From positions 1 to 64,000 of the forward strand of contig NZ_AOLM01000012.1 of assembly GCF_000337835.1 (NCBI RefSeq): DNA of 64,000 nt. The letters are read 5' to 3'. The DNA is from Haloferax sulfurifontis ATCC BAA-897 (GTDB lineage: Archaea > Halobacteriota > Halobacteria > Halobacteriales > Haloferacaceae). Below the pieces are notes generated by a model. That model was not told the origin of the DNA, ran no database searches, and saw only the letters and a program-made list of their open reading frames with translations. Positions within the stretch are counted from its first letter, which is position 1; each line of letters begins with the position of its first letter. Position numbers and translations under genes: made by a program. Shown here piece after piece: positions 8,264 through 64,000 of this stretch.

Positions 8264-8389
8264 TTCCTCTGTGCACGCCCCGTCGCCCGCGTTCGCAACC
8301 CGTCTCGGTCGCCGCCGAGCCGTCGGTCTCCCGCTCGCGGACGGCCGGGACCGAAGTCGTTTTCCACGCGTCGCCGCCTATCGCCGGGT

Positions 8390-8812
8390 ATGGCAACAGG
8401 TGGCGGCCAAGGAACGATGACGCTCGCGTTCGAACTCTCCGCGCTCAAGCGGCTCGGCGACCCGAACGCGGCGTTTTCGGACGCGCGGACGTGGACGAAG
8501 TACATCGGCGTGGTGAGCGAGAAGCCGACCTACGTCGTGACGAATTTCACCCGGAAAGAGCGCATCCGGCAGGACTTCTTCTCCGGACCGCGCGGGGTCA
8601 AAGAGAGCCTCGAAAACGTGATGCGCCAGTTCGACACCGACCGGCACGTCTTCGTCGGCACGTCCGACGAGGACCGCGCGGTGGCCGAAGAAATCGGCTG
8701 GGAGTACCTCCCCGTCGAGGACGCCGCCGAGGCCGCCGAGTGGGTGCTCGCCGGCGACGACGACGCCCCCGCCGACCCCTTCGAGGACGAGGGCCGCGAC
8801 GACTGGCCCTAG
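8390..8812 (+). CDS. Conserved haloarchaeal protein (DUF7124-like)
   Basis: 140 residues, acidic and soluble. The central part (WTKYIGVVSEKPTYVVTNFT, a FFSGPRG turn, then RHVFVGTSDEDRAVAEEIGW) alternates beta strands and helices as in a small alpha/beta domain. The tail is acidic and probably disordered. From memory it resembles a haloarchaeal family of unknown function often found beside mptA. It ends about 80 bp before mptA on the same strand, so they may be co-transcribed, but no functional link is demonstrated. Confidence 0.65.
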   Translation: MATGGGQGTMTLAFELSALKRLGDPNAAFSDARTWTKYIGVVSEKPTYVVTNFTRKERIRQDFFSGPRGVKESLENVMRQFDTDRHVFVGTSDEDRAVAEEIGWEYLPVEDAAEAAEWVLAGDDDAPADPFEDEGRDDWP

Positions 8813-8893
8813 TCGGAACACAGCGGCGCGTTCGCCCGCGATTCCGTTCCCCTATCGAAAGCACTAATCAGCAACGGCACTTCTTATTCTCCG

Positions 8894-9820
8894 ATGAGTC
8901 ACCAGTTGCCTGACGTACAGGCCTCCCAGCCGGACGTGACCGTCGGGCTGAGCCAGGTCGGCGTCACGGGCGTCGAGAAGCTCGTCAAGATAGCTCGCGA
9001 CGGGAAGCGACCCCTCGTCTTGATGGCGGAGTTCGAAGTGTTCGTCGACCTCCCCGGCGGCCGCAAGGGCATCGACATGAGCCGAAATATGCAGGTCATC
9101 GACGAGGTCCTCGAAGCCGCCGTCTCCGAGCCGGCCTACCGCGTCGAGGACATGTGCGGCGACGCCGCCGAGCGCCTCCTCGCCAAACACGAGTACACGA
9201 CGACCGCCGAGGTCAGCATGACCGCCGAGCTCGTCGTCCGCGAGGACACCCCCGCCAGCGGCCTGTCCACCCAGAGCACCGCCCAAATCATCGCCAGCGC
9301 CACCGCGACCGACGAGGGAACCCGCGAGGAAATCGGCGCGGAAGTGGTCGGCATGACCGTCTGTCCCTGCTCGCAGGGTATGTCCGCCTCCCGCGCCCGC
9401 GACGTGTTACAGGACCTCTCCGTGGACGACGACACCATCGAGGAGTTCCTCGACAAGGTGCCCCAGCCGGGGCACTCCCAGCGCGGCCACGCCACGCTCA
9501 CCGTCGAGACGGAGGGCTCGCCCGAGGTCGACCTCATGGACCTCATCGACATCGCCCGCGACTCGATGTCGGCGCGCATCTACAACCTCGCCAAGCGCCC
9601 CGACGAGGACCACATGACCTACCACGCCCACGCGAACGCGAAGTTCGTCGAGGACTGCGTCCGCTCGATGGCCGAGATGTCCGTCGACGCGCTCGACCAC
9701 CTCGGCGACGACGCGGTGGTCCACATGAAACAGTCGAACGACGAGTCGATTCACCAGCACAACGCGCACGCCGAGCGCGAGGTGACGCTGGGACAGCTCC
9801 GCGACGAGCTCGACGCCTGA
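8894..9820 (+). CDS. mptA: GTP cyclohydrolase MptA (tetrahydromethanopterin/folate-type pterin synthesis)
   Basis: 308-residue member of the GTP cyclohydrolase IB/MptA family. MptA converts GTP to 7,8-dihydroneopterin 2',3'-cyclic phosphate, the first committed step of archaeal pterin synthesis, and uses a catalytic divalent metal. Diagnostic features are the N-terminal DVQASQPDV, the conserved active-site [12 protein letters not shown] at residues 157-168 (Cys157 expected as ligand or catalytic residue), GHSQRGHA at 193-200 and a [10 protein letters not shown] segment near the C-terminus. Length matches the archaeal family. In haloarchaea this enzyme also supplies the precursor for archaeosine and folate-like cofactors. 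Confidence 0.95.
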
Positions 9821-9870
9821 ACGCTCTCGACGCCCGAGACGCTCGCGTTTCGAATCCCGTCCCGTACTCG

Positions 9871-9875
9871 TTTTT
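9871..9875 (+). terminator. T-tract terminator after mptA
   Basis: A run of five T lies about 50 bp after the mptA stop in the short convergent gap before the TrmB gene. Oligo-T tracts are the usual archaeal termination signal; no strong hairpin is seen. Confidence 0.35.
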
Positions 9876-9903
9876 CAGTTCCCGTTTCCGCCGCCGCGAG
9901 CCG

Positions 9904-10707
9904 CTACAGCGAGAGCGGTGCCGCCTCCTCCCAGCGCGGGTCGAACGTCGCTCGGAGGTCGGCGGCGAACTCGGGGTCTTTCAGGTCTATCATGGCGAAC
10001 GCCCGCCCGGGGTCGAGGGGGTTCGGCACCTCGATACAGACCTCCACGTCGTCGATGAGGTTGAACACGCCCGTGACGTTCTCCGCGGTACGCGCGTGGA
10101 AGTTCGGCGTGCTCGACAGCCGGTTCACGTAGCTCTGGTTGACGCTCTCGGGCAGGCTGTCGACGAGGCCGGGCGACATGAGCATCGACACTTCGACCCC
10201 GCGGTCGAGCGCGGCTTCGAGTTCGTCGACGACGAGGTCGCCGACGGCGTCGAGGTCGAACTGCGGCGAGGGCGTCCCGGCGACCATCACGAGCGAGTCG
10301 TCGGCCGCCGCGAGGCGCTCGACGAGCAGGTCGATGGTCTCGTCCGCGCCGACCGCGGCCGTCCAGAACTGGTCGTGGACCGGCTCCGCGGCGTCGAGTT
10401 CGTCGGTCAGCTCGTCGACGACGTTCTCGTACTGTTCGGCCTTCTCGGCCAGCTCTTGGCGCTTCGATTCGAGCAGGCGGTCCAGCGCCGTGTCGGGCTC
10501 GACGGCGACGTACTTCTTCGGCCGGCTGGCCGCCTGACTCCGGATGAGGTGGTACTGTTCGAGGCTGTTCAGCACGTCGTAGACGCGGCCCATGGGAACG
10601 TCGCTGGCGCGGGATAACTCCTTGGCCGTCGTCGCCCCCGTCCGCAGGAGCGCGCGGTAGGCCCGGGCCTCGTACTCGGACAGCCCGAGGTCTCGCAGAC
10701 TGGTCAT
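9904..10707 (-). CDS. TrmB-family transcriptional regulator
   Basis: 267 residues. Residues 1-70 carry the TrmB winged helix (LRDLGLSEYEARAYRALLRT, then MGRVYDVLNSLEQYHLI). A coiled-coil-like segment, SKRQELAEKAEQYENVVDEL, comes next. The C-terminal half is a ligand-sensing domain with the PLD-like layout of TrmB proteins (DETIDLLVERLAAADDSLVMV). TrmB proteins usually sense sugars or other metabolites; this ligand is unknown. The ATG at 10,705-10,707 starts directly at the helix-turn-helix domain, so an upstream in-frame start adding 11 residues is less likely. It is convergent with mptA. Confidence 0.87.
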   Translation of the reverse strand: MTSLRDLGLSEYEARAYRALLRTGATTAKELSRASDVPMGRVYDVLNSLEQYHLIRSQAASRPKKYVAVEPDTALDRLLESKRQELAEKAEQYENVVDELTDELDAAEPVHDQFWTAAVGADETIDLLVERLAAADDSLVMVAGTPSPQFDLDAVGDLVVDELEAALDRGVEVSMLMSPGLVDSLPESVNQSYVNRLSSTPNFHARTAENVTGVFNLIDDVEVCIEVPNPLDPGRAFAMIDLKDPEFAADLRATFDPRWEEAAPLSL

Positions 10708-10794
10708 GCACCGTCCGTCACGTTTCTCCTTGATAAACAAACCGGATGTTTACACCCGAGTTCGGTTGCCGCCGGTCGCGGTCAGGGGGTGGAG

Positions 10795-12453
10795 TCAGGC
10801 GTCGGGCGTGACTGAAGACACCGCCTGCATCAACTCCTCGGGAGTGGTTGCCTCCACCGCCGTCTCGCCGGCGCTGACGCGCGCGGTCCCGGCGGCGAGG
10901 TCGGCGGCGTCGGCCTCGGGGACGACGAGCGCCTCGTGGTCCGCGACGCGGAGCGCCGCCCTGTGGAGGTCGGAGCCGACCCCGTCGTTGAGTTCGACGA
11001 GAAGCGGGTCGCGGAGCAGTCGCGCCGCCGCGGTCCCGTAGGCGGCGACCTGCACGCCGATGCGGTCCCACGCGCCCGCGAACGCGGCGATGGTCTCCCG
11101 TGCCACCTCGCGGTAGCGCTCGTCGTCCGTGAGCGCCGCGAGGTCGAGAAGCGCGTTCGCCATCTCCACGTTCCCGTCCAGCGGGCGGAGCGGCGACGAC
11201 AGGAGCGCCTCGCCGCTCGCGGGGCCGTCGAGGAACGAGCCCTCGTCGAACAGTTCGTCGATGGCGGCGTCGGCGACCGCGGCGGCGAGTTCGAGGACCG
11301 GTTCGCCCGCCACCGACTCGTCGCCGAGCACCTGCCGGGCGCGACAGGCCGCGGCGACCACGCGCGCTTGGTCTTCGAGCAGGAGGTCCTCACCCGCGTC
11401 GCCGCCGGACCGGAAGTGGGTCACGACGCCGTCGTCGACGAGGTCCTCGGCGACTCGCGCGAGCGCGCGAGAGCCGAACTCGCGGGCCCGCTCGTCGTCG
11501 GTGAGCCCCGCCAGCACCAACAGTGCGTCCGCGGCGAGGGCGTTGCCGCCGGCGTACACCGTGAGGTCGGTCCGCGGGCCGGGGGCGTTGTCGCGGCCCT
11601 CCTCTCCGAGGAGGTAGTAGTCGGTCCCCGCGGCGGGACCCATGCTCCCGGCGAAGCCGGTTCCGGTCCACAGCGAGTCCACGAGGAAGTCGGCGGTCCC
11701 CGCCGCCGGGTCGAGGTAGGCGTCCTCGCCGGTGTAGCGGTAGCCGTTTGCGAACGCCCGCAGGAGCGCGGCGTTCGATTCGAGCGTCTTCTCGCGGTTC
11801 GGCTTCGACCACGCGGCGTCGTCGGCGTAGCGGAAGAAGCCGCCCTCGACGGGGTCGTACAGGCCGTCGCGAATCGCGTCGAGCGACCGGAGCGCCCGGC
11901 TTCGGTCGCGCTTCAGCGCGAACTCGACGGTCCGCGGGAGCGGGAACTTCGCGGCGTCGCCCCACCCGCCGTGGGCCTCGTCGAAGGCGACTTCCAACTG
12001 GCCGGCGAGGTGCGATTCGATTTGCGGCGAAACCTCGCCCGCGGGCGGGAGGTCGCCCCTGAGCGCCCGCGGGAGCCGCCCGGCATCTGCGCCCTTCTTC
12101 TCCCAGACCTCGCGCACGCGGTCGATGACCTTCCGCATGCCGTCGGGGCCGATGAACGTCGCGCCCGTGATGGGGTGGCCGTCGGGCGCGAGGAAGACGG
12201 TCGAGGGGAAGCCGCCCATGTTGTACCGCTCGCGGATGCGCGGCTGGCGGTCCACGTTCACCCGAATCGGGACGAAGCCGTCGTTGAGATTGGCCGCGAT
12301 GCGCGGCTCGGCGTACGTCTCGGCGTCCATCTCGTGACAGTCCTCGCACCACGTCGCCGACAGCGAAAGCAGAATCGGCTTGTCCGCCGCTCGCGCCTCG
12401 GCGAACGCGTCGGGGCCCCACTCTCGCCATTCGACGCGCGTCTCGTCGGTCAT
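10795..12453 (-). CDS. Thioredoxin-fold DUF255/YyaL-type protein
   Basis: 552 residues. An N-terminal thioredoxin-like domain (about 1-130) has a CxxC motif, WCEDC, with cysteines at 36 and 39, and a PSTVFLAPDG strand. A long alpha/alpha-toroid of the six-hairpin glycosidase fold follows. This architecture is that of YyaL/SPATA20 proteins, whose biochemical role is unclear; the protein is somewhat shorter than the usual 650-700 residues, missing part of the C-terminus or inter-domain loops. The ATG at 12,451-12,453 starts just before the thioredoxin strand. It stands alone, facing the FxsA-like gene. Confidence 0.85.
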   Translation of the reverse strand: MTDETRVEWREWGPDAFAEARAADKPILLSLSATWCEDCHEMDAETYAEPRIAANLNDGFVPIRVNVDRQPRIRERYNMGGFPSTVFLAPDGHPITGATFIGPDGMRKVIDRVREVWEKKGADAGRLPRALRGDLPPAGEVSPQIESHLAGQLEVAFDEAHGGWGDAAKFPLPRTVEFALKRDRSRALRSLDAIRDGLYDPVEGGFFRYADDAAWSKPNREKTLESNAALLRAFANGYRYTGEDAYLDPAAGTADFLVDSLWTGTGFAGSMGPAAGTDYYLLGEEGRDNAPGPRTDLTVYAGGNALAADALLVLAGLTDDERAREFGSRALARVAEDLVDDGVVTHFRSGGDAGEDLLLEDQARVVAAACRARQVLGDESVAGEPVLELAAAVADAAIDELFDEGSFLDGPASGEALLSSPLRPLDGNVEMANALLDLAALTDDERYREVARETIAAFAGAWDRIGVQVAAYGTAAARLLRDPLLVELNDGVGSDLHRAALRVADHEALVVPEADAADLAAGTARVSAGETAVEATTPEELMQAVSSVTPDA

Positions 12454-51705: not shown

Positions 51706-53955
51706 ATGGCGTCTCCTGACAAGAACTCCCAGACTGACCGCCGCGATGGCGAAGAATCGTTCCGAGCAGACGGTGGCACCGCCGAACTGGTCCCCACGAC
51801 CGGTCCGCAGGCGATGGCCGCCCGCGCGAGTGAGCTTCCGGTCCCCGCGTCGGACCGCATCGAGTACGGCCCCGCCGACGACCTCGTCGAAGACGAGACG
51901 GACGAAGACCGCCCGGAGACGCTCCGGGAGGCCGTCCTCCGCGAGGTGAAGGCGTTCTTCGCCGCCATCGACGACGAGACGGCGTTCGCGCCCGCGCCCT
52001 CCGAGGCGTTCATCGAAGACAAGTTCTTCGACTTCGCGTTCCTCGACGGCGTCGAGGCCGTCGAACACTACTGGGTGAACAAGCCCTTCGCGTTCGTCTC
52101 CATCCTGTACGACCACGAGAAGCGCGAACACCGGTACCACGTGAGCGAGCCGCGCCTCGACCCCTTCGAGGACTTCGTGCGCGAGGACCTGACGAAGATT
52201 CTGCGCAACAGCCTGCTGTACCGCGACCTCGACGCCGACGGCGACCGCGAGGACGTCTTCGACGAGGAGGCCCGCGAGATAATCTCCGAACACGCCGCGA
52301 CGGTCGAAGAGGGGTCGCTCTGGAAGCTGTTTTACTTCCTGCTTCGGGACTTCATCCACTTCGGCCGCATCGACCCCGTGATGCGCGACCCCGGCATCGA
52401 AGACATCTCCTGTGACGGCGACGACGTGCCCGTCTACGTCTTCCACAGCGTCTACCGGGACGTGCCGACGAACGTCGTCTTCGACGACGGCGACCTCTCG
52501 TCGTTCACCATCCGCCTCGCGCAACGCGCGGGCAAGCAGGTCACCGTCTCCGACCCGCTCGTGGACGCGAGCCTCCCGGACGGCTCTCGCGTCCAGTTAA
52601 CCCTCGGCTCTGACATCGCCACCCGCGGGTCGAACTTCACCATCCGGAAGTTCTCGGACGTGCCGCTGTCGCCGGTCGACCTCGTGCGCTGGAACACCTT
52701 CAGCGTCGAGCAGATGGCGTACTTCTGGCTCGCCATCGAGAACAACCGCTCTCTCATCTTCGCGGGCGGCACGGGCTCCGGGAAGACCACCTCGATGAAC
52801 GCGGTGTCCTTCTTCGTCCCCGGCCACGCGAAGGTCGTCTCCATCGAGGACACCCGCGAAATCACCCTCCCGCACGACAACTGGATTCAGTCGGTCACCC
52901 GCGACACGTTCACGGCCGACGGCCGCGGCGAGGTGTCGATGTACGCGCTCCTGCAGGCCGCGCTCCGACAGCGCCCCGAGTACCTGCTGGTCGGCGAGAT
53001 TCGCACGGAAGAGCGCGTCGCGCTGACGTTCTTCCACTCCATCGCCACGGGCCACACCGCGTACACGACGTTCCACGCCGACTCCTCGGAGGGCGTGGTC
53101 CACCGCATGCGCAACGAGCCCCTCGGCGTGCCCGCCCAGATGCTCTCGGACCTCGACATCATCTCGGTCCAAAAGCAGATTCACCTCGACGGCGACCGGA
53201 CCCGCCGGAACATCGCCGTCACCGAAATCGCCGGCGTCGACGACGACGGCGAGGTCGAACTCCGCGACGTGTTCAAGCGCAACCCCGAAAACGACGCCCA
53301 CGAGCGCGTCGGCGACTCCGTCGTCCTCGACGAAATCGCCGCCGAGCGCGGCTGGACGAAGGCCGACCTCAAGTACGAACTCGACATCCGCGCCGACGTG
53401 CTCCGGTACATCGCCGCCTCGGGCGTCGACGACTACCTGACGGTGTCGGCGATGATTCGCCGCTTCGAGCGCGACCGCGAGGGCCTCCTCGCGCACGTCT
53501 ACGCCGAGACCTCGCTGGTCTCCGTCGACGACGAGGCCGACGAACACGACGACGACGCGGCCGACGAGGCTGACGCCCCGGCCGACGAACACGACGACGA
53601 CGAAATCGAGGTCTCGCCCGAGACCGAGCGGCTCCTCGCGGACCTGTTCGACATCGAGTTAGACGACGACGCTGACGGCGACGAAACGCCCGACTCCGCC
53701 GAGGCGGAGGCCGCCCCCGAACCCGCGCCCGCCGCCGAAAGCGACGACGCTGATGCCGGCGCAGACGACGCGGAAGCCGATTCCGCTGTCGTCGCAGACG
53801 CCGTCGAGTTCGACGATGTCGCGGAGGCCGGCCCCGCGCCGGCCGATGACGCCTCGGACGCCGACGAAACCGACGAAACCGACGAAACCGACGAAACCGA
53901 CGACTCCGAATCCGTGACCGACGACGACGACCGGGAGGCCGACGATGCCCGCTGA
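51706..53955 (+). CDS. pilB: Type IV pilus assembly/secretion ATPase PilB
   Basis: 749 residues of the VirB11/GspE-type secretion ATPase family. A variable N-terminal region precedes IEDISCDGDDVPVYVFH, an N-domain segment. Walker A is AGGTGSGKTTSMN near residue 353, the Asp box is VVSIEDTREITLP and Walker B EYLLVGEIRTEE. The last ~165 residues are Asp/Glu-rich with a DET repeat near the end, characteristic of halophile disordered tails. It powers pilus assembly in concert with PilC. Its stop overlaps the pilC start by 11 bp. Confidence 0.95.
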   Translation: MASPDKNSQTDRRDGEESFRADGGTAELVPTTGPQAMAARASELPVPASDRIEYGPADDLVEDETDEDRPETLREAVLREVKAFFAAIDDETAFAPAPSEAFIEDKFFDFAFLDGVEAVEHYWVNKPFAFVSILYDHEKREHRYHVSEPRLDPFEDFVREDLTKILRNSLLYRDLDADGDREDVFDEEAREIISEHAATVEEGSLWKLFYFLLRDFIHFGRIDPVMRDPGIEDISCDGDDVPVYVFHSVYRDVPTNVVFDDGDLSSFTIRLAQRAGKQVTVSDPLVDASLPDGSRVQLTLGSDIATRGSNFTIRKFSDVPLSPVDLVRWNTFSVEQMAYFWLAIENNRSLIFAGGTGSGKTTSMNAVSFFVPGHAKVVSIEDTREITLPHDNWIQSVTRDTFTADGRGEVSMYALLQAALRQRPEYLLVGEIRTEERVALTFFHSIATGHTAYTTFHADSSEGVVHRMRNEPLGVPAQMLSDLDIISVQKQIHLDGDRTRRNIAVTEIAGVDDDGEVELRDVFKRNPENDAHERVGDSVVLDEIAAERGWTKADLKYELDIRADVLRYIAASGVDDYLTVSAMIRRFERDREGLLAHVYAETSLVSVDDEADEHDDDAADEADAPADEHDDDEIEVSPETERLLADLFDIELDDDADGDETPDSAEAEAAPEPAPAAESDDADAGADDAEADSAVVADAVEFDDVAEAGPAPADDASDADETDETDETDETDDSESVTDDDDREADDAR

Positions 53956-56071
53956 CTCGTCGGCGTCGGTTCCCCTGCCCGACTACGAGGTCGAGCAGTA
54001 CTTCCCGCGCGAACACTTCGACGAGTCGCCCGAGGAGGTCGAGCGACTCCGCCAGCGCTACGGCTACGTCCGCACGTACTTCAAGCGCCACCCGGCGGGC
54101 CACCGCGACCTCCAACGCTGGCTGAACCAGACCCGCGTGGGCACGACCTACGACCTGTATCTCACCCAGTCGATTAAGCTGGCGGCCGTCACCGCGGCGT
54201 TCGGCTCGCTCGTCGGGCTCGCGCTCACGTTCGTCCTCGCCCGCACGGGCGTGCTGGCGAACGCGTCGAGCCCCGTTAGCCTCGGCATCGCGGCGCGGTA
54301 CGTCGCCCCGCTCACCCCCTACAAGGTGCCCATCCTCGGCGTGGTCCTCGTCGGCCTCGTCGGCGGGTTAGCGGCCGCCGGGACCTACTACGCCCGGTAC
54401 TACCTCCCCAAGAGCCGCGCCGAGATGCGCGGCCGGAGCATCGACATCCTGCTCCCGCACGCCATCGTCTACATGTACGCGCTCAGCCACGGCGGGATGA
54501 GCTTCCTCGAAGTCATCCGCTCGGTCGCCGACGCGCCCGACTACGGCGAGGTGTCCCGCGAGTTCGAGATGATCGCCCGCGACATGGACCTGTTCGGTAA
54601 CGACCTGTTCACGGCGCTCCGCAACTCCCGGAACCTGACGCCCTCGATCAACTTCGAGCAGTTCCTCGACGACTTGCTGTCGGTCCTCGACTCCGGCGGC
54701 GACGTGACCGCCTTCCTCGACCGCGAGTCCGCGACCTACCTCGAAGAGGCCCGCGACGAACAGGAGGACTTCATCGAGACGCTGTCGATGCTCTCGGAGG
54801 TGTTCGTCGCCGCGTTCGTCGCCGCGCCGCTCTTGCTCATCGTCACCCTGATGGTCATCAGCTTCCTCGGCGGCGACACGCTCGTCCAGCTGTACGCGCT
54901 GAACTACCTCATCTTCCCGCTCGGGATGGGGCTGTTCTTACTCCTCGTGGACGTGCTCTCCTCGCCGTACACCCAGGACACGGTCCGGACGAAACACGAC
55001 GTGACCGTCCTCGAAGAGATTCGGACGGTCGCGGTCGACTTCCTCGGCGCGATGCGCCGCGAGGTCCAGCGCGCCCGCGAGGCCCGCTGGGGAAGCGACG
55101 GAATCGCCTCCGACGGCGGCTTCGTCGACGAGCGACTCGACGACTACCGCCTCGAAAACGCGGTGTACGAGCTTCGGACGCTCATCGGCGACCCGCTCGA
55201 CATCATGCGCCGCCAGCCGTACCTCTCGGCGGCCTTCACGGTGCCCGTCGCGCTCCTGTCGGTCGTCGCCGTCTACGCGCTCGGCCTCGCGACGCCGAGC
55301 CTCGACGCCATGCTCGCCGACCCGTACAACACGACGGTCTGGTTCGTGGTCCTCCCGTTCGCCATCGTGGCGGTCCCGCTGACGGTGTTCCACGAGCTTC
55401 GGACCCGCCGCGAGCGCACCCTCGAACGGCGCTTCCCCGACACGCTGAACCTGCTGTCGAGCGCCAACCAGATGGGCATCTCGCTGGTCGAGTCGCTCGC
55501 GCTCGTCTCCCGCTGGTCGAACGGCGCGCTCGCGGACGAACTCCGCGCGCTCCGCAACGACATCCGCTGGAACCACGACGCCCACGCGGCGCTCATGGCG
55601 TTCGCCACCCGGCTCAACGTCCCGCAACTCTCGCGGGTCATCCGGCTCATCGCCAGCGGCGGCCGCACCAGCGGCGACCTCTCGCGCGTCCTCAGCGTCG
55701 CCGCCGAAGACACGCGCAACCGCTACAAACTGGAGAAGTCCCGCCGTCGCGCGATGGGCTCGTACATCGCCATCGTCGTCATCGGGTACTTCGTCTACCT
55801 GTTCGTCATCCTGATGCTCGGCGCGAGCTACCTCGCCCCGCTCGCCGAGATGACCGCGCCCACGACGGCGTCGAACGGGCAGGCGCTCCCCATCGGTATC
55901 GGCTCCGTCCCGCTGGCGAACTTCCACGTGGTGTTCTTCCACTCCGCGCTGATTCAGGCGGTCGGAAGCGGGCTCCTCGCCGGCAAACTCGCCGACAACA
56001 GCGCCCTCAGCGGGCTGAAGTACGCCCTCGGACTGTCCGCGCTGGCGCTCGTCGCCTTCGCACTGGTGTAA
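53945..56071 (+). CDS. pilC: Type IV pilus membrane platform protein PilC
   Basis: 708 residues, two TadC/GspF-like halves, each with conserved cytoplasmic helical domains and membrane helices (IKLAAVTAAFGSLVGLALTF; APLLLIVTLMVISFLGGDT; TVPVALLSVVAVYALGL; ALGLSALALVAFALV at the end). Motifs include SHGGMSFLEVIRSVADAPDY, typical of archaeal PilC. It anchors the pilus ATPase in the membrane. The start overlaps pilB by 11 bp, and the stop is 4 bp before the first pilin-like gene, so all are one operon. Confidence 0.94.
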   Translation: MPADSSASVPLPDYEVEQYFPREHFDESPEEVERLRQRYGYVRTYFKRHPAGHRDLQRWLNQTRVGTTYDLYLTQSIKLAAVTAAFGSLVGLALTFVLARTGVLANASSPVSLGIAARYVAPLTPYKVPILGVVLVGLVGGLAAAGTYYARYYLPKSRAEMRGRSIDILLPHAIVYMYALSHGGMSFLEVIRSVADAPDYGEVSREFEMIARDMDLFGNDLFTALRNSRNLTPSINFEQFLDDLLSVLDSGGDVTAFLDRESATYLEEARDEQEDFIETLSMLSEVFVAAFVAAPLLLIVTLMVISFLGGDTLVQLYALNYLIFPLGMGLFLLLVDVLSSPYTQDTVRTKHDVTVLEEIRTVAVDFLGAMRREVQRAREARWGSDGIASDGGFVDERLDDYRLENAVYELRTLIGDPLDIMRRQPYLSAAFTVPVALLSVVAVYALGLATPSLDAMLADPYNTTVWFVVLPFAIVAVPLTVFHELRTRRERTLERRFPDTLNLLSSANQMGISLVESLALVSRWSNGALADELRALRNDIRWNHDAHAALMAFATRLNVPQLSRVIRLIASGGRTSGDLSRVLSVAAEDTRNRYKLEKSRRRAMGSYIAIVVIGYFVYLFVILMLGASYLAPLAEMTAPTTASNGQALPIGIGSVPLANFHVVFFHSALIQAVGSGLLAGKLADNSALSGLKYALGLSALALVAFALV

Positions 56072-56075
56072 GGCC

Positions 56076-58253
56076 ATGACTCACAACACTCCCAACAACA
56101 CCCAATACACACAATCGCCCCTCAGGCACGTACTGCGCGGGCTCGTCGCGGGCGCGGCCCGCCGCGGCTCGCACCTCCGCGGTGACCGCCGCGGGGCCTC
56201 GGCCATCCTCGGCACGATGCTCGCGTTCGCGCTCGTCGTCTCGCTCGTCGCGATGGTGCAGGTCTCGGCGGTCCCCGCGTGGAACCAACAGACCGAGTTC
56301 GAACACCTCACGGCCGCCGAGACCGACTTCGCCGCGTTCGACGAGAGCGTTGCGAAGGCCGTCGACGGCCGGCAGACCCGCGCGACCCTCGACGCCGGCG
56401 TCGACTACCCGACCCGCGCGCTGTTCGTCTCGCCCGCCGCCGGCTCCGGAAGCCTCCGGACGACCGACCCCGCGACGGCCCGCATCTCCGGGGCGGTCGC
56501 GACCGGCGAGACCGGCACCTACTGGGACGGCTCCGAACACGCGTTCGACACCCAGCAGTTCGTCTACCGCCCCGACTACCGGTACCTCCAGAGCGAGCCC
56601 TCGCTCGTCCACGAGGGGACCGCGCAGTACACCGCCTACGCGGGGAGCGAGGTCGGCGCGACCCAGTCGCTCGTCGACGGCACCAAGGTCTCTCTCGTCT
56701 TCCTCGAAGGCGACATCGACACCGCGACGAGCGAGGCGACCACCTTCGGCGTCGTCCCCCTGAGCGCCGGCACCGACTACATCACGGTCACCGACGCGGG
56801 CACGCCCATCACCATCTCGGTCCCCACTCGGCTCTCCGAAGACACGTGGCGCGACCTGCTGGCCGACGAACCCAACGTCCGCTCTATCGCCTACGCGACC
56901 GGCACCGACTACAACACGCTGACGGTCGAACTCGCGCCCGGCAAGACCTACGACCTGCGTCTCTCGCGGGTCGGCATCGACACCCCCGGCGCGCTCCAAG
57001 CGCCCGCCTACATCGTCGACGTCGAGGGCGACAACGCCGTCGTCCCGCCCGGTTCGAGCCACCGCGCCGTCGTCGAGGTCCGCGACGCGCAGAACAACCC
57101 CGTCCCCAACGCGGTCGTCAAGGCCAGCCCCGGCCTGACCGCCGAAAGCGGGCGGGTCGTCGCGCGCGACACCGACACCGTCTCGACCGTCACCGATTCG
57201 GACGGCCGCGCGACGTTCGTCTACACCGCGACCGGGAGCATCGACGGCGTCGTCAACGACGAGTTCGACGTGGTCGTCGAGGACGCCGCGGGCGCGACCG
57301 TCGACCGCGTGACCTTCGACGTACAGCTCCGCGAGGGCGGCGTCACCGACCCGCTCCGCGGGCTCGTGGCCGCCGTCGACGACCCCGGCTTCGTCTACGC
57401 CGACGTGGACGGCAACGGCGAGTTCGACGGCGCGGACTACCGCGTCAACGACACCGGCACGGGCGGCGACGTGAAATACGACGCCGGTACCGACCGGCTC
57501 GTCGTCCCGCCGAGCACCGGGACCATCGTCTCCGACCGCGACATCACCCTCGCGGGCGACGGGGTCTCGCTCCACGTCGACGTCGTCGCCACCGGATCGA
57601 ACAGCCGGGTCGACGTCGACGCCGGAAGCGGCTCGCTGGCCGCGGTCGGCGTCAGCGTCACCTCGGTGTCGGGGAAGGACATCACCGTGACCGCGGGCGA
57701 CGAAATCGACCTCTCGGGCGCGTCGGTCACGCAGGGAAGCAAAGCCGGCCTCTCCATCGAGGCCGGCGGCGACGTCGACCTCGACAACGCCGGGGTGACG
57801 GTCGCACAGGACAGCAACAGCCTCCGCATCGTCTCGACGGACGGCTTCGTCAGCGCCCGGAGCGCCGACATCAGCGGGAAGGGCGACATCCGCATCGACG
57901 GCACGGACGGCGTCGACCTCGCCGGGGCCGGCCTCTCGGGGGTCAAGGACAACGGCGCGCTCGACGTCGTCTCCGCGCGCGGCGGAGTCAACCTCAACGG
58001 CGTGGTCATGCTCGGCGACGGCGACATCGTCGTCGACGCCGAGGGCAACGTCTTCGTCGTCGGCGCGAACATCGCCTCGACCAAGACGGACGTGGTGATA
58101 ACCTCCGACGGCGGGATGGTCAGCGGCCGCGAGGCCGCCATCTCCGCCGAGGACGACGTGACGATCACCGCGGCGGTCCGCATCTACCTGCCCGACTCCT
58201 CTATCGAAGACGAGGACACGCCCGAACTGAACGCGCCCGAGAAGGAGGTCTGA
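56076..58253 (+). CDS. Giant pilin-like surface protein 1 (Ig-like domain and beta-solenoid-like tail)
   Basis: 725 residues. A charged leader of about 40 residues ends DRRG, followed by a hydrophobic helix (ASAILGTMLAFALVVSLVAM) at 41-66. This matches a class III prepilin signal with cleavage after Arg-Gly. The ectodomain begins with a region shared with the next gene (VDYPTRALFVSPAAGSG; SEDTWRDLLADEPNVRS). A big-1-type Ig-like domain follows (HRAVVEVRDAQNNPVPNAVV). From about residue 470 on are repeated short strands (GDVDLDNAGVTV; GDIRIDGTDGVDLAGAGL; GDIVVDAEGNVFVVGANI) that look like a beta-solenoid. It is far larger than normal pilins; a pilus-tip or cell-surface adhesin role is inferred. 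Confidence 0.85.
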   Translation: MTHNTPNNTQYTQSPLRHVLRGLVAGAARRGSHLRGDRRGASAILGTMLAFALVVSLVAMVQVSAVPAWNQQTEFEHLTAAETDFAAFDESVAKAVDGRQTRATLDAGVDYPTRALFVSPAAGSGSLRTTDPATARISGAVATGETGTYWDGSEHAFDTQQFVYRPDYRYLQSEPSLVHEGTAQYTAYAGSEVGATQSLVDGTKVSLVFLEGDIDTATSEATTFGVVPLSAGTDYITVTDAGTPITISVPTRLSEDTWRDLLADEPNVRSIAYATGTDYNTLTVELAPGKTYDLRLSRVGIDTPGALQAPAYIVDVEGDNAVVPPGSSHRAVVEVRDAQNNPVPNAVVKASPGLTAESGRVVARDTDTVSTVTDSDGRATFVYTATGSIDGVVNDEFDVVVEDAAGATVDRVTFDVQLREGGVTDPLRGLVAAVDDPGFVYADVDGNGEFDGADYRVNDTGTGGDVKYDAGTDRLVVPPSTGTIVSDRDITLAGDGVSLHVDVVATGSNSRVDVDAGSGSLAAVGVSVTSVSGKDITVTAGDEIDLSGASVTQGSKAGLSIEAGGDVDLDNAGVTVAQDSNSLRIVSTDGFVSARSADISGKGDIRIDGTDGVDLAGAGLSGVKDNGALDVVSARGGVNLNGVVMLGDGDIVVDAEGNVFVVGANIASTKTDVVITSDGGMVSGREAAISAEDDVTITAAVRIYLPDSSIEDEDTPELNAPEKEV
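58243..58249 (+). promoter_or_regulatory. Strong Shine-Dalgarno site for the second giant pilin
   Basis: aggaggt is a full anti-16S match, seven bases before the GTG at 58,257, overlapping the end of the upstream gene. Strong SD sites are uncommon in haloarchaea, and this one supports the GTG start. Confidence 0.7.
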
Positions 58254-58256
58254 GCC

Positions 58257-59984
58257 GTGTCTCGCCTCTCTCTCGACTCCCGCGGCGTCTCGGAAATCCT
58301 CGGGTTGGTCTTCGCGTTCGGGCTGGTCGTGTCGGTCATCGCGGTGGTCCAACTCGCGGGCACGCCCGTCTGGACCGCCGGCGACGAGGCCGACCACAGC
58401 GCCAGCGTCTCGACCGACCTCGCGTCGCTCGACTCGCAGGTCTTCCGCGCCTCCGGCGCCGAGTCCGGCAGTCGCGTCGCGGTCGACTCGGACGTGTCGT
58501 ACCCCGAGCGGTACCTCGTGGTCTCGCCGCCCGACAGCGCCGGGACCTTCCGGGTCGACGGCGCGGACGCCGTGACGGTCACGGGCGTCTCCGCGGTCGG
58601 TCCCGAAGCGGTGTTCTGGGACGGCACGACCCGCACCTACGAGACCGGTGCCATCGTCTACGAGGCCAACTACGCCGAGCGCGACCAGGCGCGGATGGTT
58701 CTCGAAAGCGGCGTCTCGTACCTCGAAACCGACGGGAACCCCGTCGTCCACCGCCAGTCGCTCGTCCGCGGCACGACCGTCACGCTCGTGTTCTTCGAGG
58801 GCGACCTCGACGGCCACACGACCGCCGGCGACACCGTGGCGCTCGCGCCCATCTCCGTGCGCTCGGAGTCGCTCCCGGTGTACAACGCCACCGACCCGGT
58901 TCGCATCTCGGTGCCGACCTACCTCTCGGAGGACGCGTGGGTCGGCCTCATGGCCGAGGAACCCCACGCGCGGGTCGTCTCCCACGTCGCCAGCGGCGAC
59001 CACGCGGTCGTCACTATCGAACTCGACGCGGGCGTCCGCTACGACTTCCGCGTCGCCCGCCTCGGCGTCGGCGAGGCCGTCGAACCCGACCCCGCCGCCT
59101 ACGCCATCGCGGTCGAAGGCGAGGACGCCGCGGTCCCCTCGGGCGGCCGCGAGACGCTCACTGTCCGCGCGTTCGACCGCTACGGCGCGCCCGCCGCGGG
59201 CGCGACGCTGACCGTCAGCCCGTCGACCCCGCTCGGCGGCACCGTCGCCCCGACCGCCGGGGCGACCGCCGTCACCGACGAGTCCGGCCGCGCGAGCTTC
59301 ACGTACACCGCGCCCGACGACGTGACCGATATCGAACACGACTCGGTCACCGTCACCCTCGACGGGGCGTCCGGCCCCGGCGCGACGGTCACCCTCCCGC
59401 TGGAAGTCCGCGGGACGGGCGAGACCTACGAGGTCAGAAACACCACCCCGTCGACGCCGGAGCCCGAAGACGACTTCAGCATCGACGACGGCGAGGTCGT
59501 CCCGTCGGACGACTTCACGGGGGAGTTCAAACTGCTCGGGAGCGCCATCTCGGACGGGTGGCACGATGTCCCCGTCTCCGTCACCTTCGTCGTCGACGGC
59601 GAGTCGCACCACTCCGCGGACTGGGACAACGTGAACGACCGCCGGTCCCACTCGTTCAGCGTGACTGGCGACTCCGGTGACACGCTCTCCATCGTCGCCG
59701 CCACCGACGGCTACGTCACGGCCGACTCGTCGGTCGACCACCGACAGGTCGCAGTCCTCCGCGACGGCGACCGGGTCCCGAGGATACGGGGCTACAACGG
59801 ACAGGACGACGCCGCCGAGTTCGTCGCCCCCTACATCAGCGACGACGGGCGCACCATGGACCTCGCCGACAACCAGGCCATCTTCCTGTTCGAACTCGGA
59901 ACGACCGACACGGACAGTCCGGCCTTCGACATGCAGGACGTGGTCATCCTCGTGACCCTCTGGGAAGACGGGGGTGAGCGCTGA
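58257..59984 (+). CDS. Giant pilin-like surface protein 2 (Ig-like domain)
   Basis: 575 residues. A short leader, MSRLSLDSRG, is followed by the hydrophobic segment VSEILGLVFAFGLVVSVIAV, a class III prepilin signal. The ectodomain is homologous to that of the upstream gene (SYPERYLVVSPPDSAG; VYEANYAERDQARMVLESG; LSEDAWVGLMAEEPHARV). A big-1-like domain follows (TLTVRAFDRYGAPAAGATLT). After an acidic linker near residues 395-415, a third beta-rich segment ends VILVTLWEDGGER. No beta-solenoid tail is present, which differs from protein 1. The GTG start is supported by a strong Shine-Dalgarno site. Confidence 0.85.
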   Translation: MSRLSLDSRGVSEILGLVFAFGLVVSVIAVVQLAGTPVWTAGDEADHSASVSTDLASLDSQVFRASGAESGSRVAVDSDVSYPERYLVVSPPDSAGTFRVDGADAVTVTGVSAVGPEAVFWDGTTRTYETGAIVYEANYAERDQARMVLESGVSYLETDGNPVVHRQSLVRGTTVTLVFFEGDLDGHTTAGDTVALAPISVRSESLPVYNATDPVRISVPTYLSEDAWVGLMAEEPHARVVSHVASGDHAVVTIELDAGVRYDFRVARLGVGEAVEPDPAAYAIAVEGEDAAVPSGGRETLTVRAFDRYGAPAAGATLTVSPSTPLGGTVAPTAGATAVTDESGRASFTYTAPDDVTDIEHDSVTVTLDGASGPGATVTLPLEVRGTGETYEVRNTTPSTPEPEDDFSIDDGEVVPSDDFTGEFKLLGSAISDGWHDVPVSVTFVVDGESHHSADWDNVNDRRSHSFSVTGDSGDTLSIVAATDGYVTADSSVDHRQVAVLRDGDRVPRIRGYNGQDDAAEFVAPYISDDGRTMDLADNQAIFLFELGTTDTDSPAFDMQDVVILVTLWEDGGER

Positions 59985-60037
59985 GGACGCCGACCCGCCG
60001 CCGCGCTCGTCAGGAGCGCCGACCCATTCTTTCGGTC

Positions 60038-60043
60038 TTTTTT
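60038..60043 (+). terminator. Oligo-T terminator of the pil operon
   Basis: Six T (tctttttt context) about 54 bp after the stop of the second giant pilin. It is the first T-tract downstream of the operon. Confidence 0.5.
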
Positions 60044-60101
60044 CCCGTCGCGTCCGCGCGACCGCCGTATCGTTAACACCCGCGCCGCCGTAGGGCCGCG
60101 T

Positions 60102-60806
60102 ATGTCGTTCGACCCCGACCGCGTCTCGACGGTCACGTTCGACTCGTACAGCACCCTCGTCGACGTCGACGCCGCCGAGAAGGCGCTCGCCGAGCGCGTC
60201 GCCGACCCCGAACCCGTCTCGAAGCTGTGGCGGTCGCGGTCGCTCGAATACACGTTCGTCGGCAACCAAATCGACGAGTACGAGCCCTTCTACGAGGTCA
60301 ACCGCGCGGCGCTCCAGTACGCGCTGGACGCCCACGACGTGTCGGTCCCGGCGAGCGAGCGCGACGAGATCCTCTCGGTCTATCACGAACTCGACGTGTT
60401 CGACGACGTGCGCGACGCGGTCGGCCGCCTCCGCGACGCCGGCTACGACTGCTACGTCGTCTCCAACGGGAACCCCGAGATGCTCGATTCGATGGTCGAC
60501 CACGCCGACATCCGCGACCTCCTCGACGGCGTCGTCAGCGCCGACGAGGTCGGGGTGTTCAAACCCGACGCGGAGCTCTACCGCCACGCGGCCGCCCGAA
60601 CCGGGACGCCCATCGACGAAATCGCCCACTCGACCGCCGGCTGGTTCGACGTGATGGGGGCGCAACACGCCGGAATGCAGGGCGTCTGGGTCGACCGCAA
60701 GGACTCGCCGTGGGAACCGTTCGGGCCGGAACCCGACCTCACCGTCCCCGACCTCACGACGCTCGTTGACACGCTCGTCGGCGACGGACGCGAGGCGACG
60801 GACTGA
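60102..60806 (+). CDS. HAD-superfamily (S)-2-haloacid dehalogenase-like protein
   Basis: 234 residues. The nucleophile Asp lies in VTFDSYSTLVDVDAAEKAL, the position used by L-2-haloacid dehalogenases (FDAYGTL). An Arg in LWRSRSLEYTFVG fits the halide/carboxylate site. SNGNPEML and a Lys in VFKPDAELY supply motifs II and III; AGWFDVMGAQHAG is motif IV with one acidic residue. It may dehalogenate 2-haloacids or act as a phosphatase of the same branch; this is not resolved. It is a single gene downstream of the pil operon. Confidence 0.86.
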   Translation: MSFDPDRVSTVTFDSYSTLVDVDAAEKALAERVADPEPVSKLWRSRSLEYTFVGNQIDEYEPFYEVNRAALQYALDAHDVSVPASERDEILSVYHELDVFDDVRDAVGRLRDAGYDCYVVSNGNPEMLDSMVDHADIRDLLDGVVSADEVGVFKPDAELYRHAAARTGTPIDEIAHSTAGWFDVMGAQHAGMQGVWVDRKDSPWEPFGPEPDLTVPDLTTLVDTLVGDGREATD

Positions 60807-61346: not shown

Positions 61347-62402
61347 TCAGTTCTCCGTTTCGTTGTGGATGGGCGTCTCCGTCGGTGGCGGAGTCTCACT
61401 CATCGGTTCGTCAGTAGTCGTTTCGTCGTCAGTGGTCGTTGTCTCGTCGTCAGTGGTCGTTGTCTCCGGTTCGTCAGTAGTCGTGGTCTCTGGTTCGTCA
61501 GTAGTCGTGGTCTCTGGCTCGTCGGTCGTCGTTGTCTCCGGTTCGTCAGTAGTCGGTTCCTCCGTCGTCGGTTCCTCACCGACAGTCACGACTGCGTCGT
61601 CGGTGACGGGCGTGCCGTTCATCGTGTACGGACCGTCTTCGGTTCCGTTAGACGTGAGGAAGTCGAGCGTCTGGTTGTCGTTGGTGTCGAGATGCGCCTG
61701 CGCGGTCAGGTTGGCGCTCTCGTTCAGCGGTTCGAGAAGCGGCACGGTGACGTTCTCCTGCGGACCGGATTCGAGGTAGTCGGTTGCGCCGATGACCGAG
61801 CCGTTCTCGTCGAGGATGGCGATGTAGCCACCTTCGGAGAGGTTCGCGCTCGCGACGGTCACGTTACTGCCGTCGGACTCCTGGTCGTCGAACTGGAGCG
61901 TCGCGTTCGGCTCCTCGGGTTCGGGCTGTTCGCCCACGGTGAGCGTCGTCAGCTCGCCGAAGTCGCGCGTCTCGATACCGTGGATGTACGTCCCGTCTTC
62001 GAGACCCGTCGTGTTGACGTCGAACGCGATGGTCTCCGTCTCGTTCGGGTTCAGCGCCCAGCCGGTTCGGACGACCACGTCGCCTTCGAGCCGGAACTCG
62101 ACGCACTGAATCATCGGCACGTCGTTCGGGTTGGTGATGTCCGCCGACACCGTCACTTCCTCGCCGGGTTCGACGTCGGACGGGGCGGAGAGGTTGCTCA
62201 CCCCGAACGACTCGTAGGTCCCGTTGCTCGGATACGTACAGTACTGCGTCTGTGTCTGCGTCTGCGTTTGTGTCTGTGTCTGGGTCGGTTGTTCTACCTG
62301 TGCCTGCTGTGTGTCGACCGCCGCCAGTCCGGTCCCCGTCGCCGCCGCCGCGACGAGAGCGACGACGACGAGGACGCCGGCGATACGTGTTCGTGTGCTC
62401 AT
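61347..62402 (-). CDS. Secreted repeat-rich protein (DUF7282-like), probably cell-surface
   Basis: 351 residues. A Sec-type signal peptide with a hydrophobic core (RIAGVLVVVALVAAAATGTG) ends near residue 28. A Gln/Thr repeat (QTQTQTQ) follows at about 40-53, then two beta-rich domains (EEVTVSADITNPNDVP; NVTVASANLSEGGYIAILDE). The C-terminal 80 residues are TTTTDEPE repeats, which may be heavily O-glycosylated. No C-terminal membrane anchor is seen. Several N-x-S/T sites are present, typical of haloarchaeal surface glycoproteins. Function is unknown. Confidence 0.78.
   Translation of the reverse strand: MSTRTRIAGVLVVVALVAAAATGTGLAAVDTQQAQVEQPTQTQTQTQTQTQTQYCTYPSNGTYESFGVSNLSAPSDVEPGEEVTVSADITNPNDVPMIQCVEFRLEGDVVVRTGWALNPNETETIAFDVNTTGLEDGTYIHGIETRDFGELTTLTVGEQPEPEEPNATLQFDDQESDGSNVTVASANLSEGGYIAILDENGSVIGATDYLESGPQENVTVPLLEPLNESANLTAQAHLDTNDNQTLDFLTSNGTEDGPYTMNGTPVTDDAVVTVGEEPTTEEPTTDEPETTTTDEPETTTTDEPETTTTDEPETTTTDDETTTTDDETTTDEPMSETPPPTETPIHNETEN
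61400..61560 (-). repeat. Approx. 24-bp tandem repeats encoding TTTTDEPE
   Basis: A roughly 24-bp unit, based on gttcgtcagtagtcgtggtc, recurs about five times with small variations in the C-terminal part of the secreted protein. It encodes the Thr-rich acidic repeat. Confidence 0.75.
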
Positions 62403-62902
62403 GTATCTGCAATGACAATCTACCGACGCCGCCGGCAAAAGGTGACGAGATAGTTTCAATAGTTTCGCGCGCGGGCTGTCAGTTTACCTGACGGTGTAGA
62501 CGGTTATTCTGTCTCTGATTCCGATACTGGTGGCCTCTTGACCGATTTTCTCGCAACAGTTCACGACACACGACATTTCACGCGAGACGCTATTCCTTAA
62601 CTGTCAGAAAAGCGAGTAAGTCGCCGAAGCTAACGGGGTAGTCTCTCGTTTATTCGAACGTCTTGACAGTTTGAGTGACGGGAGCGACTGAGCGTTTCGA
62701 AACCGGGACGGTGTCCCGTCGGCGACGGTCTCGGGAACCGCCCCGAACCCCCATTCCAGACTTCCCACTCGGGTATCGATTAGCTCCTGACGTTGAGTAG
62801 TGCGAATCACAATCGGTATTGGCGTGACATTCGGGCCCGAATATGAGGAATCACACTCACAATATCCAAAACTTCTTGTACCCGTGTCGTATTTGGTCGT
62901 GT
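62403..62902. other. Intergenic stretch of about 500 bp, no gene found
   Basis: No convincing gene on either strand; the composition is clearly more AT-rich than neighbouring genes. A short hairpin, GTCAG-5-CTGAC, occurs at 62,478-62,492. A long open frame on the minus strand around 62,604-63,119 lacks the usual codon bias and antisenses two better-supported genes. The right end probably contains the promoter of the small zinc-finger gene. Confidence 0.55.
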
Positions 62903-63052
62903 ATGAGCGAATCCAACGAGAATTCGCGGATTGCACCGTACACGGAGTACTCGCGCACCCGTTCTCGGTGCCCTCGATGCGGGACCACGGTCCCGACGGA
63001 GGCGGTCGGCGACGCGCTGTGTGCGAGTTGCAAGACGGACGTCTCCATCTGA
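62903..63052 (+). CDS. 49-residue zinc-ribbon protein
   Basis: Very small protein, MSESNENSRIAPYTEYSRTR..., with CPRCGTT and CASCKTD, two CxxC knuckles spaced about 15 residues apart. This is a typical single zinc ribbon as found in many small haloarchaeal proteins. Its TGA stop shares one base with the ATG of the next gene (TGATG), indicating translational coupling. Role is unknown; it could bind nucleic acid or a partner protein. Confidence 0.7.
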   Translation: MSESNENSRIAPYTEYSRTRSRCPRCGTTVPTEAVGDALCASCKTDVSI

Positions 63053-63240
63053 TGAGTACGGCCGCACCCCACAGTTCCGGCGAACTGGCGGACGCACCCG
63101 TGTTCGACCTCGAATGCATCTACGACGACCCGGAGAACCCGACCGAACTGACGGTCTTCTCCCCGAAGTCGGAGGAGTTGACCACCTCGTGGATTACGGT
63201 CGACCGCGGGAGCGCCGTCTCGCTGGACGATATCGCGTAG
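63052..63240 (+). CDS. 62-residue DUF7511-like protein, coupled to the zinc-ribbon gene
   Basis: Starts MSTAAPHSSGELADAP and continues with a compact beta-rich body (FDLECIYDDPENPTELTVFS; TTSWITVDRGSAVSLDD). From memory it resembles a haloarchaeal DUF7511 group. No enzymatic motif is present. It overlaps the stop of the zinc-ribbon gene by one base. Its function is unknown; the coupled arrangement suggests that the two proteins act together. Confidence 0.68.
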   Translation: MSTAAPHSSGELADAPVFDLECIYDDPENPTELTVFSPKSEELTTSWITVDRGSAVSLDDIA

Positions 63241-63322
63241 GGGGTCGGGGCGGAGTTGTTGGTTTTTGATGTTTGTCGAGTAAGTCGTCTAATCAGGGTG
63301 CTTGAGAGTTTCGTACCACGCT
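63241..63322. other. Abrupt drop in GC content, left edge of a probable acquired island
   Basis: Base composition changes here: the preceding gene is GC-rich, whereas from about 63,245 to the window edge the sequence is visibly AT-richer, with codons ending in A and T much more often. No gene lies in this short gap; an integration scar or insertion sequence end was not seen. Confidence 0.6.
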
Positions 63323-64000
63323 TCAAACGTCATTAGGAAACACTTCGTTGAGAACCTGATTTCTATAGTTCTGATTGACTGCCGCTTGATAGACAAGTGG
63401 TTGATGAGAACTTTGATGGATAGAGCCAGAGGCTCTTTGAGCCTCACATATTGCGGCTTTCATCCACTCTCGGCGGAAAGTTGGGGTCAACATACGCTCA
63501 GGAGTTCCTTCGTATTCCACCCAATGGGGTGTCTTCTCTTCATCTTCTCCAGTGTTAGCTGAAAAATCAAGGTATCCATCTGCTTTTTCAATCAACTCAT
63601 CGAGGTTCTCGGTCTCCTCTCCGATAATGAATCCAGTCTTGGCTTTCCCTGTAAAGAAGGCACCTAATACCATACGTCGGTTAATAGAGATACTGATTCG
63701 TTTCTTTTGAGGGATTGCTGTGACCAACTCCGAATCATCCTCAGTTAGTCCCGTAGCGGCTATCAAGTCGCTCAGAAGATCGAAGAAGGAATCAGCCCAC
63801 TCCCGGCTTGGAGCCAATTGAACGCGATTCACTAGCGCTCTGTGTCCGTCGTCATCCACTTCTATGCTTCCCGCTATTGGTGGTTCAGTATCTTGTACGA
63901 AACTCGCGTTTACCCTTGGAGCATCAGAAGTAAGGGATGTAGGCCGTGAGTGGGTTGAAGAGCCAGACGGCGATGTATGGATAAGTTCATCAAGTTCTTC
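63323..64000 (-). CDS. Unrecognised protein, 5' end outside window, low-GC gene
   Basis: At least 225 codons. The frame stays open from the stop at 63,323 to the window edge, so the start lies outside; a GTG at 63,859 could start a shorter version but upstream codons are also open. The visible C-terminal part has mixed alpha/beta character (KKRISISINRRMVLGAFFTG; KAKTGFIIGEETENLDELIE). The Ser/Pro-rich beginning (HTSPSGSSTHSRPTSLTSDA) looks like a linker, implying another domain further upstream. Codon use is AT-rich compared with the window, pointing to recent transfer. No family could be named; a defence or mobile-element gene would fit this composition but is speculation. Confidence 0.6.
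   Translation of the reverse strand, partial: EELDELIHTSPSGSSTHSRPTSLTSDAPRVNASFVQDTEPPIAGSIEVDDDGHRALVNRVQLAPSREWADSFFDLLSDLIAATGLTEDDSELVTAIPQKKRISISINRRMVLGAFFTGKAKTGFIIGEETENLDELIEKADGYLDFSANTGEDEEKTPHWVEYEGTPERMLTPTFRREWMKAAICEAQRASGSIHQSSHQPLVYQAAVNQNYRNQVLNEVFPNDV

Follow-up and report, generated by a model that had tools for sequence, protein, structure and literature searches.

A probable giant pilin of Haloferax sulfurifontis with a predicted C-terminal beta-helix of adhesin type, and exchange of this end among haloarchaeal relatives

The window, the whole stretch of 64,000 nucleotides analysed here from Haloferax sulfurifontis ATCC BAA-897 (contig NZ_AOLM01000012.1, positions 1 to 64,000), holds four genes arranged head to tail, encoding PilB, PilC, a giant modular pilin (P1) and its paralogue (P2). 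PilB powers pilus assembly and PilC anchors it. Comparison shows that the order is kept in all ten Haloferax loci examined, each linking P1 to the assembly genes. PilB and PilC also adjoin a gene with a related giant-pilin head at six of 36 loci compared (L073-L077 and L084), all outside Haloferax, and neither is present at the remaining 30. A second PilB locus of the same genome (L066) has other pilins. A supposed broken PilB paralogue was dismissed, the apparent stop being that gene's own end. The window's PilB ends in a stretch of about 150 residues (53503-53955), past the ATPase and PilB3_C domains, that is highly acidic (Asp/Glu/Ala, with DETDETDETDET). Coordinates are collected in Table 1.

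Table 1. Genes of the PilB-PilC-P1-P2 operon and parts of P1, in window positions
Feature	Position	Strand	Evidence
PilB-type assembly ATPase, 749 aa	51706..53955	+	Pfam T2SSE E 1.8e-31, PilB3_C, PilB3_N
PilC/TadC-type platform protein, 708 aa	53945..56071	+	Pfam T2SSF, two stretches, E 1.6e-38
Protein 1 (P1), giant modular pilin, 725 aa	56076..58253	+	ORF; operon orthologue in 10/10 Haloferax loci; dN/dS <1
P1 leader up to RRGAS (residues 38-42), class III/prepilin-type signal motif	56076..56192	+	sequence; putative cleavage
P1 long N-terminal helix (pilin stem), residues 40-96	56193..56363	+	AlphaFold2 model: single helix
P1 beta-rich pilin head, residues 97-307	56364..56996	+	strands in AlphaFold2 model
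P1 Ig-like domain (Big_1/SbsC/intimin-type), residues 308-421	56997..57338	+	VIA-align
P1 beta-helix N-terminal cap DPGFVYADVDGNGEFDGADYRV, Asp/Asn/Gly-rich	57381..57461	+	from residue 436; motif recurs in relatives on other pilins
P1 predicted right-handed beta-helix, residues 463-725, ~11 coils of 22-24 residues	57462..58250	+	AlphaFold2, VIA-align, periodicity
Protein 2 (P2), paralogue of P1, 575 aa	58257..59984	+	35% identity to P1 residues 32-446; Big_1 E 4.6e-6

Proteins of H. denitrificans and H. massiliensis share 97-98% identity with P1. Antisense and shifted frames across the region are also long and open, and evidence of selection on the P1 frame matters for that reason: dN/dS lies below 1 in all five regions in nine of nine comparisons with other Haloferax. 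Judged by these substitution patterns, the P1 frame is genuine and under purifying selection. An antisense open frame of 1553 aa (56007-60668, minus strand) spans P1 and P2 together; because selection is seen on the P1 frame, we regard it as a by-product of high GC.

The N-terminus of P1 has the makings of a class III signal, with RRGAS at residues 38-42 and a helix that opens with a hydrophobic run; by eye, RRGAS can be likened to the PilA motifs DAVS and RAVS quoted in PMC4371748. No curated pilin family of Pfam is matched above its cut-off by P1 or P2, nor is there an NCBIfam match for either. The family DUF7289 scores below its cut-off of 27 bits on both, at 18.5 bits on P1 (E 0.0015, starting at residue 39) and 26.7 bits on P2. 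The AlphaFold2 model of full-length P1 (44 sequences, mean pLDDT 83.0, pTM 0.48) consists of the helix, the beta-rich head, the Ig-like domain and a tail of repeated strands predicted with high confidence. Residues 1-41 and 421-434 fall below pLDDT 50, so that the model leaves the placement of the domains relative to one another undefined. The Ig-like domain aligns with the S-layer protein SbsC (Z 11.8) and with intimin D0 (Z 10.9) in VIA-align.

The original prediction, made from the DNA letters and their translations, described a beta-solenoid-like tail from about residue 470 (57480) to 58253, built of strands around two quoted units. Both are present, GDVDLDNAGVTV at residue 565 (57768) and GDIRIDGTDGV at residue 603 (57882). 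The proposed end is correct, 58253 being the last base of the stop codon, and the start has to be moved about 100 bases upstream, to the first residue of the module at 436 (57381). The repetition itself is real: BLOSUM62 autocorrelation over residues 466-725 peaks at lag 46, or two coils of about 23 residues, with a z of 6.0 reached by none of 2000 shuffles. Under the same null, the control regions are negative, with 930 of 2000 shuffles as strong for the P1 head and 1343 of 2000 for the Ig-like domain. Hydrophobic residues of the tail gave no support in a Fourier test (1988 of 2000 shuffles were equally strong), and the tail contains no tandem array at the DNA level, as is expected of diverged repeats.

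Modelled alone from 17 sequences, residues 436-725 give a solenoid with pLDDT 95.4 and pTM 0.92, neither disordered nor globular. In the full model, ten-residue blocks from about residue 470 have pLDDT 88-97, with a few at 80-87. On the strength of these models the P1 tail is a right-handed beta-helix, whose coils were counted by eye. The cap in front of it has two positions, D8 and G13, that are invariant in the module alignment A3; its acidic, Gly-rich spacing led us to guess, by eye, that it may possibly bind calcium.

Foldseek with the tail alone returned nothing at E <= 0.001, the best match being HxuA at 0.045, and the Z values given here come from a second look at this weak list with VIA-align. 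The tail aligned with the repeat region of EtpA (Z 26.0, rmsd 3.0, 262 residues, 14% identity), with the EtpA secretion domain (Z 24.4, 255 residues), with HxuA (Z 20.9, 212 residues) and with the secretion domain of filamentous haemagglutinin, FHA (Z 17.7, 206 residues). The resemblance to adhesins and haemagglutinins that had been proposed from the repeats is borne out by these matches; bactofilin, proposed for comparison alongside them, is absent from the fold matches shown for the tail, which excludes nothing. EtpA, HxuA and FHA are adhesins of two-partner secretion (TpsA) and have in common with the P1 tail, as modelled, a right-handed beta-helix. P1 differs from them in that its beta-helix is covalently part of a pilin, in an archaeal cell, and that no haemagglutinin Pfam family matches it at E <= 1; EtpA, by contrast, is a separate secreted protein. 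Haloarchaea are not known to have an outer membrane of the bacterial type. Sequence searches of solved structures with P1 gave nothing at E <= 10, and in BFVD nothing matched at E <= 0.001. Searched against solved structures, the tail profile A2 hit adenovirus fibre (2e-4) and, more weakly, fibre, TamB and other entries, which we read as a sharing of short-strand repeats rather than kinship. Foldseek with the full model returned mostly multi-domain and Ig-rich proteins.

A fold in common with adhesins shows no function, and the matches extend to enzymes and phage proteins. Alginate epimerase AlgG (Z 20.3, 273 residues), AlgE6 (Z 19.6) and phage tailspikes (Z about 19) align with the tail, and GH28 and GH87 enzymes match the full model, as might be expected if the beta-helix were a polysaccharide-active enzyme of lyase or epimerase type, carried on a pilus and acting on extracellular polymers. 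We consider this very unlikely. The enzyme alignments begin at Z 20.3, below both EtpA alignments, and no enzyme family of Pfam matches P1. Among 12 P1 orthologues, 15% of the 225 solenoid positions are invariant, and the charged or aromatic residues among them, candidates for catalytic residues of pectate-lyase-like type, come to five (H500, D502, D545, D598 and D648) and lie scattered.

The head and the tail of P1 are very differently distributed. Of 293 genomes of the order, 243 have a match to the head region (residues 1-310); the tail finds matches in 11 of the 293 as a single sequence and in 38, from 19 of 87 genera, as profile A2 (E <= 1e-6). The 57 matches to this profile correspond to 43 open frames. 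Twenty of these frames carry the giant-pilin head (head profile E 2.8e-52 or better), and sorting by eye assigned eight to short archaeal pilin N-termini, eight to SipW-type signals and seven to other export signals. Comparison thus places the module behind a pilin N-terminus in 28 of the 43; it is not specific to pilins, since the other 15 are exported proteins with no recognised pilin N-terminus. Pfam and NCBIfam concur only in part with the sorting by eye, calling Pilin_N in nine of the 43, DUF7289 in eight (E <= 0.01), arch_flag_Nterm in six and cognate_SipW in three. Fil_haemagg_2 occurs in five (E <= 0.01; best 3.9e-7). In a phylum-wide sample the module was found in 10 of 344 genomes, one of which (G422) lies outside the order and encodes it in a frame of 1536 residues whose N-terminus is pilin-like.

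The module and the giant-pilin head also occur in other arrangements. At one locus (L072, in genome G216) the module is absent from a giant pilin and present on the short pilin encoded next to it. Plasmid pHsi204 of Haloarcula sinaiiensis encodes WP_229380517.1, which like P1 combines the head with the cap and beta-helix; unlike P1 it is annotated from its repeats alone, as a 'hemagglutinin repeat-containing protein' and not as a pilin, and no PilB or PilC is annotated nearby. Other giant pilins have different domains: a Laminin_G_3 lectin domain in L079 (E 3.3e-37), a PKD domain in L083, or other beta domains. The L079 protein (8303-12418), of 1372 residues, has a CarboxypepD_reg domain besides its lectin domain and is encoded directly behind another giant pilin.

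The presence of the module on exported proteins that are not pilins, the very large ectodomain of P1 and the absence of PilB and PilC, in the stretches examined, from around solenoid-bearing giant pilins that fall outside the P1 clade could all be accommodated if P1 were a surface protein with a pilin-like signal, membrane-held or released, that never enters a filament. This we judge distinctly unlikely, given that P1 and P2 lie directly behind PilB and PilC in ten of ten Haloferax loci and that the helix and motif of P1 are of pilin type. P1 and P2 have the same giant head and Ig-like domain, and both therefore look like bulky minor pilins, where roles such as tip and shaft had been suggested for the pair.

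The original prediction also held that P2 lacks the tail, and it does: profile A2 gives a single match in the window's own genome at E <= 1e-6, and the C-terminal domain of P2, which it does not match at that threshold, differs from that of P1. We rejected the idea that P2 keeps an ancestral tail common to giant pilins, as a jackhmmer search with its last 110 residues returned, from the set searched, Haloferax P2 orthologues only. Two P2 orthologues (L009 and L057) lack the C-terminal part of P2. A tree was built from 55 heads, 22 of them belonging to proteins with the module, after three of 58 rows had been removed as copies. In it P1 and P2 are sisters (99, starred), next to giant pilins of other families, linked to PilB/PilC, that gave no match to the tail. 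The tree is a quick one with flagged long branches, and three of its long-branch joins come with a warning. Because the sister P2 and the neighbouring giant pilins have no tail match, the module was most likely acquired by P1 once the duplication into P1 and P2 had taken place, a direction read from the tree.

Elsewhere on this tree the tail state, scored as a profile match at E <= 1e-6 so that diverged solenoids may be missed, changes at least nine times, seven of these being forced by starred branches; shuffles give 17.5. Close comparisons of loci agree with such changes. At a second giant-pilin locus, a genome with the module (G196) aligns with the window's genome and with G192, neither of which has it, through flanks and head at about 75-89% DNA identity; the heads are 67-77% identical, and the tail segment (L116, 4883-6169) is left unaligned against both L067 and L115. 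Between G092 and G149 (L123 versus L082) flanks and head likewise align, the heads being 80% identical, and 3873-4543 of L123 does not. A third pair, G124 and G066, differs in tail state with heads 89% identical. As flanks and heads align and the tail segment does not at two loci, the tail behaves as an exchangeable cassette, and comparison of sequences shows it to be exchanged at fixed loci. L067 itself (G000:C12, at about 90.9-93.6 kb, outside the window) encodes the third giant pilin of the window's genome in what appears to be a split gene: its frame stops where the orthologue in G126 runs into a PKD domain, and the next open frame holds that part.

Within P1, comparison also shows that the tail protein evolves faster than the head. 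In an alignment with 11 orthologues besides the window's, solenoid dN/dS exceeds head dN/dS in all nine pairs listed (0.24-0.68 versus 0.10-0.42), always staying below 1. Among the 12 orthologues, 38% of head positions and 64% of helix positions (37 of the 58 positions 39-96) are invariant, compared with the solenoid figure given above. Beta-helices are stiff and stable, and the tail might be a passive structural element with no ligand, namely a rigid spacer or a domain that caps the filament or initiates its assembly. Assembly is started by certain minor pilins of large size, CofB among them. Trimers formed at the tip by such pilins, again with CofB as the example, are described in PMC8179133. 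Relatives of P1 swap the tail for Ig, PKD or other domains. We hold a purely structural tail to be unlikely, for a contact made in initiation ought to be the conserved part of the protein, and a tail that changes faster than the head and is exchanged as a whole is easier to reconcile with a partner that changes than with a structural contact that is fixed.

The reading we prefer, and think fairly probable, is that P1 is a modular minor pilin of tip type, assembled by the adjacent PilB and PilC and displaying an adhesin-like beta-helix, with a function that is inferred. Because relatives exchange the end piece like a cassette, what the beta-helix represents is probably not a structure of a new kind but an adhesive tip that can be swapped. 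A prepilin peptidase would probably cut the leader, to judge from the RRGAS motif. Judging by operon and family, the helix would enter the membrane first and afterwards the core of a filament built by the operon's PilB and PilC. The bulk of the ectodomain, with its head, Ig spacer, cap and 11-coil beta-helix, would suit a tip or sparse minor subunit better than the shaft. Pointing outward, the beta-helix might bind a surface polysaccharide, a glycoprotein or another cell, in the manner of adhesins of the EtpA and FHA type. A wider version of this proposal, which we think rather unlikely, is a combinatorial adhesin system of haloarchaea. A single giant-pilin carrier would swap its C-terminal end, be it a beta-helix, lectin-like, PKD/Ig or other, at fixed chromosomal sites, and this end would diversify to set which surfaces, partner cells (mating partners, for example) or viruses the filament tip recognises.

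The original prediction knew of no pilins with such tails. That pilins lack a module of this type is not supported: the module is common on haloarchaeal pilin N-termini, and both modular pilins and the beta-solenoid pilin ComZ appear in the account of Raynaud et al. (2021, PMC8179133), which makes the P1 tail less surprising. Their account describes bacterial pilins with grafted adhesive or functional modules in many architectures, likely at the tip; the word 'archaea' does not occur in its main text. As described there, PilB and PilC of S. sanguinis resemble P1 in joining a pilin module to a large C-terminal module that is also found outside pilins, and the P1 module likewise occurs outside pilins and has a fold in common with TpsA adhesins. 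P1 differs in its archaeal head of another family, its several beta domains and its predicted FHA/EtpA-type beta-helix. ComZ of Thermus thermophilus, a minor pilin cited in the same source, is like P1 a pilin with a large beta-solenoid; the solenoid of ComZ lies inside the pilin beta-sheet and is thought to bind DNA, whereas that of P1 is C-terminal, behind the Ig-like domain and cap. EtpA, as summarised in PMC10284417, binds flagellar tips and bridges them to glycans.

The euryarchaeal minor pilin arCOG02911 (Makarova et al. 2016, PMC4858521) is of variable length, prone to duplication, all-beta with Ig-like folds and common to clade 2 systems; compared by its description, it differs from P1 in its size of about 250-550 aa, and the section on it mentions no beta-helix. 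In H. volcanii, PilB4-PilC4 is noted to be co-regulated with 'two relatively large pilins' (Pohlschroder and Esquivel 2015, PMC4371748), an arrangement like that of the window, for genes left unnumbered in that text. PilB1 and PilB4 are reported in one medium only, GMM (PMC7305310), and pilB4-pilC4 is described as down-regulated upon HFTV1 infection (PMC12542753); neither report is tied to the window's locus. PilB4 and PilB5 are both candidate names for the window's PilB. Titles and abstract beginnings in the open-access literature searched gave no description of an archaeal beta-helix pilin of this kind. As far as this search shows, what is new is a giant-pilin carrier in archaea whose C-terminal cassette is FHA/EtpA-like and is swapped at fixed loci. 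It extends to archaea the modular-pilin idea worked out on bacteria, with a large family of carriers that most of the sampled haloarchaeal genomes possess and a beta-helix cassette that moves from one pilin type to another. Where PilB/PilC operons have no assigned role, it also provides a concrete and testable idea of what they display, and of the way in which surfaces or partner cells are chosen by haloarchaea, or haloarchaea are recognised by viruses.

Some further proteins deserve mention. Eight frames with SipW-type signals (L097, L100, L102, L104, L105, L108, L109 and L124), of 314-415 aa, consist almost entirely of cap and beta-helix, and these small haloarchaeal proteins are possible fibre or matrix proteins. 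A second beta-helix protein, its N-terminus of Sec type, is encoded in three Haloferax genomes (L117, L118 and L119) and has no match in the window's genome at E <= 1e-6. Within the window, 61347-62459 on the minus strand encodes an exported protein, probably a surface glycoprotein, with a stalk of Thr/Asp/Glu-Pro repeats (TTTTDEPE units). Finally, GC content falls to 54.7% at 62001-64000, against 63-72% in the other 2-kb steps of the window, which may mark a foreign segment.
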